Source: Nitrospina sp. LS_NOB
Lineage (GTDB): Bacteria; Nitrospinota; Nitrospinia; Nitrospinales; VA-1
Assembly (NCBI GenBank): GCA_001542995.1
Contig: LFLA01000003.1
Location: 142,195 to 206,194 of the forward strand
Direction: 5' to 3'
Length of the DNA stretch: 64,000 nucleotides
Part shown: positions 39,185-57,697 of the stretch, piece after piece
How positions within the stretch are numbered: the stretch's first letter is position 1
How the letters are laid out: each line of letters opens with the position of its first letter
Position numbers and translations under genes: made by a program
Notes under the pieces: generated by a model
What the model was told of the DNA's origin: nothing
What the model saw: only the letters and a program-made list of their open reading frames with translations
The model's database searches: none

Positions 39185-39514
39185 TTAGCCGAGAAACTCT
39201 GATTCAGTGATGATGTTTTCGAGAACTTTTTCAGCAAGTGCTTCAGCGGGAATGTGATAATTGCCATCCTTGATATCATTTTTAAGCTGCTCCAGCCTTT
39301 GGGCGTTTTCGGGGCGGATAGCCGGTGCGGCATTGGCCGTTTCAGTCGCTTTTTGAATATCTTTGGCCTTGGAAGAAATAGCAATTTGCTCGGTACCACT
39401 GGTTGAGGAAGCGCTGCCTTGACTCTGGGTGGCAGCCTTTTTATCCCCGGCCTTGACCTGGCTTTGAACCGATCGATTTTTGTTAACTCGAATATTGTCG
39501 CCTGGAATTTCCAT
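39185..39514 (-). CDS. flgM: Anti-sigma-28 factor FlgM
   Basis: This encodes 109 residues. The N-terminal half is disordered and rich in Ser, Gln and Lys. The C-terminal half carries the FlgM sigma-28-binding region (ISSKAKDIQKATETANAAPA, then IRPENAQRLEQLKNDIKDGN and IPAEALAEKVLE). FlgM holds FliA until the hook is complete, so this implies the cell has flagella. It is orphaned; no flagellar gene is adjacent. No sigma-28 promoter was found upstream. Confidence 0.85.
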   Translation of the reverse strand: MEIPGDNIRVNKNRSVQSQVKAGDKKAATQSQGSASSTSGTEQIAISSKAKDIQKATETANAAPAIRPENAQRLEQLKNDIKDGNYHIPAEALAEKVLENIITESEFLG

Positions 39515-55151: not shown

Positions 55152-56567
55152 CTAATGGGCCGGTTTGCCTTTCCAACGCTGGACGTCTCGCATGAATTTT
55201 CTACGGTCCATGTCCGCGTCCCAGGGGAAAATATCCATCAAAGGTTCCAGGGCATAGTTTGACTTGTCTTCGGGAGGGAGCTCGAATCCGCCATCGGTAA
55301 TGCGGTAGATATTGTTAAACGTCCGGTAATTGCCACACAGGGTGACATAATCCCAAGCCGTGCTTCCTTCTATCAGGGCGCAGAGTTCCGAGGAAGAAAT
55401 GCCTTCGTAAAGGTTGATTTTTCCGATATCGCCTTTTTGGAGTTGAGGTTTTCCGGGTTGACCAAAATCAACGGTCCATGTCTGGGGGCCGTCTTGCCCA
55501 AACACTTCCAGTTGATAAACGATCTGCCAATGTTGCCAGCCTTCCAGCAGTTCGCTGTTTGAAATCCGCTCAAGCAAACAGTCTTCAATGAAGTCACCCA
55601 CCACTTTCATTTCCCTTTTATACTCTTCAGGATCGGCGGTTTGAGTGGTGATCACCGGAACGTAGGCGTGTGGTTTGAATGTTATCAGGTGGCTGTCGTC
55701 TTCTTTGACACGCACAAAATCAGACGATTGCTTTTCAATGCGAACTTCATCAGCCGAGATATGCGCTACATCTCCGGAAAAAAATGGAGCGCTGGAAACT
55801 TCCGGGCAGAATGCTGCCAGATCGCGTAGAAACTGATCCTGCGTTATAGGAAACGAAACCTGGTTCATGAACAATAACTCGTCTCGGTACCGGAACGCCG
55901 CAGAACCGGGCACGACAAACCTGGGATTGAGGGCCTTCACCACATTCAGGAAAGTGCAGTACTCGTCAACGGGCAGGGTGAGCGGTTTATTGTAGGAGAG
56001 GTTTCCCTCAATCAACGGAACAAAGCGGGAATGGAAAAAATCTATCTGACCGTATAATTCACCGATCCGTTGGATGATGTCAGGGTTCACCAGAGAATCC
56101 ACCTGATTCCAGATCGTCACTCCTCCGTCATTGACCAGCAGTCCATGTTCAGGAAAAGGATCTTCAGCGGTGCTCAACTGGTTGCGTGAAGGGGTCGGGG
56201 TGATGGTCACATCCTTGACTTGAATGGGTTCGAAATCTGTAACCACTTTTACATTTTTAAATTCCAGTTCATTAAGAATGTCGAGCAGAAGATTGTCCTG
56301 AGGCGCGAAGATGAGTGTGTCGGGCGTAATAATCCTCTTATTTTGCACCAGATAAGCCAGAGTGCGAACATCGAAATGGTCCTGATGCCGGTGTGAAATA
56401 TTGAGGACATCCAACGGTGGTACTTTGTCTTTTTCCAGAACGATACTGGGACATAGCGTGTTGATTTCTTCCCAAAGATAATCGAACCAGACCGGATCGG
56501 TCAGGATAGTGGTTTCTTTTGATTGTATGAGCAGGCAGGCGTGTCCGACCAGAGTCGTCTTGATCAT
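55152..56567 (-). CDS. Metallo-beta-lactamase-fold hydrolase
   Basis: This encodes 471 residues. The metal motif is HRHQDH (His59, His61, Asp63, His64), preceded by the UlaG-like start (TTLVGHACLLIQSKETTILT). Further down a GHAC and NPRFVVPGSAAFRYRDE run support the fold. The C-terminal 200 residues carry an extra domain of unknown type. It resembles the N-acyl-phosphatidylethanolamine PLD/UlaG branch; the substrate is unknown. There is no signal peptide. Confidence 0.82.
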   Translation of the reverse strand: MIKTTLVGHACLLIQSKETTILTDPVWFDYLWEEINTLCPSIVLEKDKVPPLDVLNISHRHQDHFDVRTLAYLVQNKRIITPDTLIFAPQDNLLLDILNELEFKNVKVVTDFEPIQVKDVTITPTPSRNQLSTAEDPFPEHGLLVNDGGVTIWNQVDSLVNPDIIQRIGELYGQIDFFHSRFVPLIEGNLSYNKPLTLPVDEYCTFLNVVKALNPRFVVPGSAAFRYRDELLFMNQVSFPITQDQFLRDLAAFCPEVSSAPFFSGDVAHISADEVRIEKQSSDFVRVKEDDSHLITFKPHAYVPVITTQTADPEEYKREMKVVGDFIEDCLLERISNSELLEGWQHWQIVYQLEVFGQDGPQTWTVDFGQPGKPQLQKGDIGKINLYEGISSSELCALIEGSTAWDYVTLCGNYRTFNNIYRITDGGFELPPEDKSNYALEPLMDIFPWDADMDRRKFMRDVQRWKGKPAH

Positions 56568-56680
56568 GTTTCAATTCTCTGTTTTATAAGGAGAACTGAG
56601 GTTAACCGATCAGAACAGGTAATTCAAGTCCCACTCGGCGTACCCCTTCGGGGCACGAAGACTTAGGAAGAATGTAACGC

Positions 56681-56807
56681 CAGCGGAGGTACTCCGCCCA
56701 CTCGGCGTGGGGCCAGCGTGCAATAACTTTTGTTTTCTGGCAAATAGTGTTAGCGGCAAAATAAAGACATTGCAAGTTGTCAGCGGCGGTACTCCGCCTA
56801 GCGGCTG
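56681..56807. repeat. Dispersed stop-codon-linked repeat, copy D, with flanking direct repeats
   Basis: The element at 56697-56757 reads GCCCACTCGGCGTGGGGCCA, then GCGTGCAATAAC. It is flanked by CAGCGGAGGTACTCCGCC (56681) and CAGCGGCGGTACTCCGCC (56781). The right one runs into the stop codon of the sigma-region-4 gene (56798). The neighbouring CCCCTTCGGGGCACGAA at 56643 is another hairpin repeat. Confidence 0.6.
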
Positions 56808-57040
56808 AGAAATTTTTTCAGGGTTTTATCGCAGATTTTTTTTACCTTCGATTTCGAGATGTCGAGCACCTGGGAAATTTCCGCCGAGGTCAGTTCTTCA
56901 TGGCAGTGCAGGGCCATCACCAGTCTTTCCTGTTCATTGAGCATGTCAATGGCCTCGGCAATTTCCGCCTTCCAGCTTGCCCGATCTTCGGGCGATAAGG
57001 GTATTTCTTTGGCTTCTGTCAAAATCGCGGTCTCGTCCAT
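56798..57040 (-). CDS. Stand-alone sigma-70 region-4-like HTH protein
   Basis: This encodes 80 residues. Residues of about 30-78 are a sigma region 4 (LNEQERLVMALHCHEELTSA, then EISQVLDISKSKVKKICDKT). Regions 1-3 are absent. Small region-4 proteins exist as regulators that bind -35 DNA or core polymerase. It starts 14 bases after the stop of a 44-codon ORF with a strong ribosome site, so the two make a mini-operon. The ATG has GAGGGGT upstream. Confidence 0.75.
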   Translation of the reverse strand: MDETAILTEAKEIPLSPEDRASWKAEIAEAIDMLNEQERLVMALHCHEELTSAEISQVLDISKSKVKKICDKTLKKFLSR

Positions 57041-57054
57041 GGCAACCCCTCGTT

Positions 57055-57189
57055 TCAGTGAAGTTTTTTCACGTTTGTTGTTTGTCTATTCCGTTTTAAC
57101 GCCATGCATTTGCCTTTGCGATAGACATTCCAGCCAGCGGTGTCTCTAAACATCTGTGCTAAAAGTTCATCTACAGTCAAGTCTTTCAT
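57055..57189 (-). CDS. 44-residue protein upstream of the sigma-region-4 gene
   Basis: It reads MKDLTVDELLAQMFRDTAGW, then NVYRKGKCMALKRN and a basic tail. ATG is preceded by GAGGAGG, one of the strongest ribosome sites in the window. The acidic N-terminus and basic C-terminus fit a small regulator or antisigma-like partner. It has no family I know. Confidence 0.6.
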   Translation of the reverse strand: MKDLTVDELLAQMFRDTAGWNVYRKGKCMALKRNRQTTNVKKLH

Positions 57190-57316
57190 AACTCCTCCTC
57201 TGTCTGAATTTTGACGCAGCCACCTTTTTTTATTTACAGAGCAATTCGCATGCCAAAACCTGCAACTGCCCTCCGGTTGGTACTTTTCAGAAATATTAAA
57301 TCAGGAATTCGACCCT

Positions 57317-57697
57317 TTATAAAGGGTTAGGCCGGTAGGAGTATTGATGCCCCAACGGATTGTGAGGCTGGGGAGACGATTTCTTTGTCCCTTGGTGCGT
57401 AGATAAGTAATCCAAAATTGCTTTTCTCAGGCTTGGTTCCAGATCCCACAAGCCTTGCTTTTTTTGCATCCAGGTCAATGTTTGATCCCACTGCTTCCGG
57501 GACATGCGGTTTTGTAGAATGATGGCGGTGGAATGGCACACAGTACAATTCTCAAGAACCTGTTTTCGCCCCATTCCCGGTGCCAGTCCCTGGTATTGGA
57601 AATCTTCACTGAAACCCATATTGGGGATCGTCCATAATATGGATAAAACCAAAATCAATCGAGCCATTCGCGACTGATTTTTTTGCGGGGAGTTCAT
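57317..57697 (-). CDS. Monoheme cytochrome c, likely sulfite dehydrogenase subunit (SorB-like)
   Basis: This encodes 126 residues. I start at ATG 57697, which has AAAGGAA upstream and gives a clear signal peptide (ARLILVLSILWTIPNMGFS), rather than ATG 57724. The single heme site is CTVCH (Cys51, Cys54, His55). A distal methionine is available in NRMSRKQWD. The molybdoenzyme gene directly upstream indicates a SorAB-like sulfite-oxidising pair. Confidence 0.8.
   Translation of the reverse strand: MNSPQKNQSRMARLILVLSILWTIPNMGFSEDFQYQGLAPGMGRKQVLENCTVCHSTAIILQNRMSRKQWDQTLTWMQKKQGLWDLEPSLRKAILDYLSTHQGTKKSSPQPHNPLGHQYSYRPNPL

Follow-up and report, generated by a model that had tools for sequence, protein, structure and literature searches.

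The window, a 64,000-nucleotide stretch of the Nitrospina sp. LS_NOB genome (contig LFLA01000003.1), carries a compact two-gene operon on its minus strand (Table 1). In the direction of transcription, a sigma-54-type promoter is followed by a conserved leader 13-mer, a ribosome-binding site, a 44-codon ORF, 14 bases (57054-57041) and an 80-codon ORF encoding a region-4 protein. An earlier note on this DNA had described the strong ribosome site, the two ORFs and the 14 bases between them, and we confirmed all of these on the minus strand. That note mentioned neither the sigma-54 promoter nor the conserved leader, nor the affinity of the region-4 protein to flagellar (FliA/WhiG) sigma factors.

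Table 1. Features of the operon in the window, in order of transcription
Feature	Position in window	Strand	Basis or remark
Sigma-54-type -24/-12 promoter TTGGCATGCGAATTGCT (GG-N10-GC)	57240..57256	(-)	First base 67 nt from the small ORF ATG
Leader element GCGTCAAAATTCA, conserved 13-mer	57205..57217	(-)	GTCAAA begins 23-26 nt past the promoter pattern
Strong ribosome-binding site AGGAGGAGTT, AGGAGGAG-type	57190..57199	(-)	Directly 5' of the small ORF, from sequence
Basic small protein of 44 aa in the window and 49-52 aa in relatives, no known family	57055..57189	(-)	Alignment, pN/pS
Stand-alone FliA/WhiG-like sigma region 4, 80 aa	56798..57040	(-)	Pfam, NCBIfam, PDB profile, fold

The ribosome-binding site is of the GGAG type in most operon loci, and weaker in G007 and G068. 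The neighbouring genes encode a SorAB-like sulfite dehydrogenase and a metallo-hydrolase in the window, and Sel1-repeat and DUF932 proteins in the sister genus; as none is flagellar and they differ between the genera, they were dropped as a clue to function. A structured RNA at the locus was rejected, since an Rfam search matched nothing at 56500-57600. A tiny upstream ORF across the leader was likewise dropped, because the frame through GCGTCAAAATTCA is, by eye, not in constant register with the small ORF across the sequences compared. Directly 3' of the region-4 gene, at window positions 56640-56805, lie short GC-rich repeated motifs resembling GGCGGTACTCCGCC, and some relatives have other hairpin-like GC-rich motifs after this gene.

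The small protein begins with an acidic stretch and is basic thereafter (net +6, pI 10.1), the polarity that the earlier note had seen in it. The window copy is atypically short, NR(I/V) and a few residues further on being absent from it, and 14 columns are invariant among 13 aligned sequences. No family match was found in Pfam or NCBIfam with the window copy, in PHROGs with two relatives or in PADLOC with one relative. PADLOC returned a single weak match of 13.5 bits, and a defence system was rejected on this result. The small ORF did not match the FlgM family PF04316, Pfam giving only an unrelated sub-cut-off match for the window copy. Its predicted structure is of low confidence (pLDDT 66, two helices), the model had no fold match in the PDB, and the sole PDB sequence match had an E-value of 1.1. 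The charges of the two proteins are opposite, with a net charge of +6 to +9 for the small protein and of -2 to -12 for the region-4 protein.

An initial view of the distribution came from a scan with two short peptide patterns, whose named matches were MAGs of Nitrospina, Nitrospinaceae and Nitrospinota (12 loci). Among 77 genomes of the phylum, the small ORF was found in 16 (15 intact), all in two genera of one family, Nitrospinaceae: 10 of the 16 genomes of the window's genus and 6 of the 9 of its sister genus. The conservation of this ORF, which the earlier note had proposed as a check, was thus borne out. A complete short region-4 ORF was present in 15 of 46 family genomes. Both ORFs were intact together in 14 genomes and one partner was broken in two, G015 having an intact small ORF and a region-4 ORF that ends soon after WKADIA, and G068 an intact region-4 ORF and a frameshifted small ORF. 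Pooled pN/pS in the window's genus was 0.28 for the small ORF (10 sequences) and 0.27 for the region-4 ORF (9 sequences), with 0.20 and 0.21 in the sister genus (5 sequences each); these ratios are rough, synonymous differences being near saturation (pS about 0.5-0.6), and G068 is not in the set. Judged from these sequences, the conservation of both ORFs is beyond what chance would give, and the comparison shows an operon that is specific to Nitrospinaceae and whose ORFs are co-conserved under purifying selection. A phage origin was rejected, as no relatives of the small ORF were found in viral contigs or phage records and the PHROGs matches of the region-4 protein were generic sigma families.

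The same data bear on whether the operon is a lineage-specific leftover of a duplicated fliA, retaining little function and in the course of being lost. Such decay would fit the patchy presence in 15 of 46 family genomes, the truncation in G015 and the frameshift in G068, as well as the state of the window copy, which has lost small-ORF residues and has Cys in the region-4 protein where other copies of the genus have Tyr and Arg. However, pN/pS is 0.20-0.28 for both ORFs in both genera, and promoter, leader and gene order are kept in both, so that we consider a dying remnant quite unlikely.

The 80-residue protein matched PF04545 (Sigma70_r4) over residues 30-76, covering positions 1-47 of the 50 in the profile (37.4 bits against a cut-off of 24.1). 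It is indeed little more than a region 4, as the earlier note had it. The best NCBIfam model was FliA/WhiG (2.1e-13), at 50.5 bits against a cut-off of 189.6 for the full family, the protein having 80 aa and region 4 only. A PDB profile search with the region-4 alignment gave WhiG- and FliA-type sigma factors as best matches. The predicted structure (pLDDT 81) has four helices, and Foldseek matched it to sigma region 4 domains, including that of sigma-28 with FlgM, with no E-value below 0.001. These affinities are best explained by descent of the domain from a FliA/WhiG-type sigma factor, with which it shares the region-4 fold and which is its nearest sequence family. It differs from these factors in having neither region 2 nor region 3.

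The earlier note had proposed a split sigma or a sigma-modulator pair. The second half of this proposal remains plausible, given a co-conserved pair with a region-4-only protein; the first half is not supported. A split sigma would have the region-4 protein pair with a region-2 protein to read promoters, and the architecture does recall SigO, the sigma-4 half of the Bacillus subtilis two-subunit sigma factor SigO-RsoA, in which the sigma-4 domain is encoded apart from sigma-2 (PMC8103513). However, a profile search of the window's genome found no lone region-2 protein of the kind the earlier note had suggested looking for, although a diverged partner could lie below the reach of the profile. 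The frames of all five region-2 proteins are long (192-591 aa), and each seems to include a region 4 of its own, as judged by eye from printed ends and translations; one of them also matched in the region-4 search. The partner in the operon is instead a basic protein of 44-52 aa with neither a family match nor similarity to sigma factors. With the residues for promoter reading also replaced (see below), we regard a split sigma as very improbable, and on the region-2 search and the small ORF it was rejected as the main reading.

Alignment to the FliA proteins of relatives separated a retained core from a lost part. Identity of the 14 region-4 copies to FliA is 59% in the first 30 positions and falls to 30% in the recognition helix, which makes up the last 19; among 23 FliA copies it is 97% in both stretches (G018 was dropped from the 24 FliA loci, no FliA frame having been extracted). 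Three residues invariant in 23/23 FliA copies, which we take to be the equivalents of sigma-70 R586, Q589 and K593 in the -35 recognition helix, have mostly been replaced. At the Arg position 7 copies have K, 6 have E and 1 has R; at the Gln position 13 have K, 1 has I and none has Gln; the Lys is present in 6/14. Because these promoter-reading residues are replaced, the reading of FliA promoters is unlikely in both genera. The recognition helix of the sister genus is acidic, with Glu at the first contact position in 5/5 copies and Asp or Glu at the third, and the protein as a whole is acidic there (net -7 to -12, last part net -1); in that genus the domain seems unlikely to bind any DNA. In the window's genus the last ~28 residues have a charge of +1 to +7 and the recognition helix is basic in most copies, so that the domain may bind DNA there.

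The retained core is presumably the part of FliA region 4 that carries the contacts with the RNA polymerase flap. The region-4 protein might accordingly be a flap binder that displaces region 4 of a resident sigma, making with its small partner an anti-sigma or sigma-appropriation pair and not a decoy of FlgM. This would explain why the operon is retained in a genome without FliA, as described below. However, region 4 alone usually binds the flap weakly, and the specifically FliA/WhiG-like ancestry would be left unexplained. We think this explanation unlikely.

Upstream of the operon, all 16 loci, which had been found by protein search, have the pattern TTGGCA(C/T)-N5-TTGC(A/T) starting 64-70 nt before the ATG of the small ORF. 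It contains the -24/-12 signature GG-N10-GC in 16/16 loci and fits the predicted sigma-54 site motif printed as TGGCA(T/C)(G/A)nnnnTTGCA (PMC11704786). The strict pattern had four matches in the window's genome against none for a reversed-pattern control, and 25 sites against one for the control in three relatives. RpoN is intact in the window's genome (G000), with Sigma54_DBD in a 478-aa frame, and is found in 14 of the 16 genomes of the genus. Transcription of the operon by sigma-54 RNA polymerase is the best explanation of this promoter sequence. Among the genes that follow the 25 sites in relatives are flgB and fliK (by Pfam); fliL, recognised by eye, at three sites; a lytic-transglycosylase gene at three (two by Pfam, the third by similarity); a ShlB/FhaC-like gene at two (one by Pfam); and, by eye, a gene for a UrtA-like substrate-binding protein at three. 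Others were unassigned. With flagellar and other genes behind the same type of site, the operon would therefore belong to a sigma-54 regulon that includes flagellar genes and is not restricted to them.

The leader is equally well kept, with CGTCAAAA in 16/16 loci and its GTCAAA at the spacing given in Table 1. The 13-mer occurs once in the window's genome. Outside the operon it was seen once in G005 and once in G002, and both occurrences were taken as chance, the former being inside a long gene and the latter having no visible sigma-54 site or small ORF. Among the 25 sites in relatives, GTCAAA lies 23-25 nt after the -12 element at the three operon copies and at the three transglycosylase genes (L141, L149 and L151) and at 0/19 other sites; one further site has it at 17 nt. 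In a shuffled background GTCAAA occurs at that spacing in 0.6% of leaders. At the two ShlB/FhaC-like genes (L132 and L133), a looser TTGCGCCCAA lies in about the same position.

This recurrence is a point in favour of a different role for the region-4 protein, that of a small HTH DNA-binding regulator with a new DNA target and the small basic protein as co-factor. A possible target would be the leader element, giving autoregulation, together with the matching element at the transglycosylase gene. The basic end of the protein in the window's genus would suit such a role, as would the first contact position, which on the mapping we assume is basic (K or R) in 8/14 copies. Against this, the helix of the sister genus is acidic, yet the leader element is just as conserved there, and a region-4 domain by itself binds DNA poorly as a rule. 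We regard a DNA-binding regulator as possible, though not probable.

Within the window's genus, the 10 genomes with the operon or its small gene all have flhA (10/10), the gene being broken in the window's own genome, and the three genomes that lack flhA also lack the operon (3/3). The one-sided chance of this association is 20/560 = 0.036 (calculated by hand) and two of the three flhA-less genomes are only 57% and 74% complete, so the link between flhA and the operon is weak. The operon is also missing from three genomes of the genus that do have flhA (G006, G008 and G009). In the window's genome fliA is a decayed pseudogene, flhA is split in two and contains a stop, and an internal stop interrupts fliL, whereas relatives keep these genes; the loci concerned include L002 (at C5 of the same genome, about 96 kb from the operon) and L075. 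We note that this decay points to a recent loss of flagella in the window's lineage. The same genome keeps the operon intact, together with RpoN and one clear FlgM gene. The FlgM homologue, at window positions 39185-39514 (-), is in frame and has diverged from the FlgM of relatives; FlgM is found in 59 of the 64 genomes of the order, most relatives carrying two FlgM paralogues. That the operon persists in a genome without FliA speaks most strongly against a role in the FlgM-FliA switch. This persistence could reflect the recency of the flagellar loss or a second target, or such a role could be a wrong reading of the locus.

The explanation we favour, with a probability of about 35%, is that the region-4 protein mimics sigma-28 region 4 and binds one of the partners of sigma-4 (FlgM or the flap of RNA polymerase), the small protein serving as its cofactor. 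The region-4 protein would be made when sigma-54 drives the middle flagellar genes, and would act by protein mimicry and not by reading promoters. It would take the place of FliA region 4 on the usual partner of that domain (most likely FlgM, the anti-sigma factor, or else the beta-flap) and thereby shift the share of FliA that is free versus bound. The co-encoded protein may serve as a cofactor or stabiliser of the region-4 protein, because its charge is opposite.

In favour of mimicry we counted the sigma-54 site at 16/16 loci, RpoN, the flagellar genes behind the same pattern, the FliA/WhiG affinity, a core that is retained where the recognition helix is lost (59% versus 30%), the exchange of the invariant FliA residues, the acidic helix of the sister genus, and the association with flhA. 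Against it we counted the decay of fliA, flhA and fliL beside an intact operon, the divergence of FlgM, the three flhA-positive genomes without the operon, the sigma-54 sites before non-flagellar genes, and the basic recognition helix in most copies of the window's genus. The A. aeolicus complex has FlgM wrapped around sigma-2 and sigma-4 at once (PMC4598750), and an isolated region 4 could therefore bind weakly.

A precedent for mimicry of this kind is PhyR, in whose sigma-like domain the contacts to promoter and RNA polymerase are degenerate; by binding the anti-sigma factor, PhyR frees its sigma (PMC8103513 and PMC4598750). The operon protein resembles PhyR in its degenerate promoter-contact region, a likeness that is clear for the FliA-type contacts (PMC8103513); in the window's genus the domain may have gained a new DNA specificity. 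It differs in having neither a receiver domain nor a sigma-2-like part, and in being of FliA type where PhyR is of ECF type; binding of an anti-sigma factor is putative here, with FlgM as the candidate partner. A fuller proposal is that a sigma-54-expressed, promoter-blind sigma-28 region 4 and its small partner form an anti-anti-sigma decoy for FlgM (or a flap competitor), tuning FliA output before FlgM export and adding a new layer of flagellar control; we hold this to be doubtful. The titles and abstract openings of open-licence papers revealed neither a FliA-type region 4 that stands alone nor a FlgM decoy made of region 4. If true, the proposal would extend the sigma mimicry known from PhyR-NepR to the flagellar sigma-28/FlgM switch, and would give a regulatory role to a small protein family without a known relative. 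Gene regulation in marine nitrite oxidisers has, to our knowledge, been little studied. Given the sigma-54 promoter, the leader and the alignment of 16 loci, mimicry can be tested directly with purified proteins.

Two further observations concern sigma-54 sites. One site (L076, at C7:72888 of the window's own genome) precedes an unassigned small ORF of 74 aa, counted from the second ATG, that had no Pfam match. Three (L142, L143 and L153) precede a gene for the substrate-binding protein that by eye resembles UrtA, which suggests that sigma-54 may control nitrogen uptake as well.
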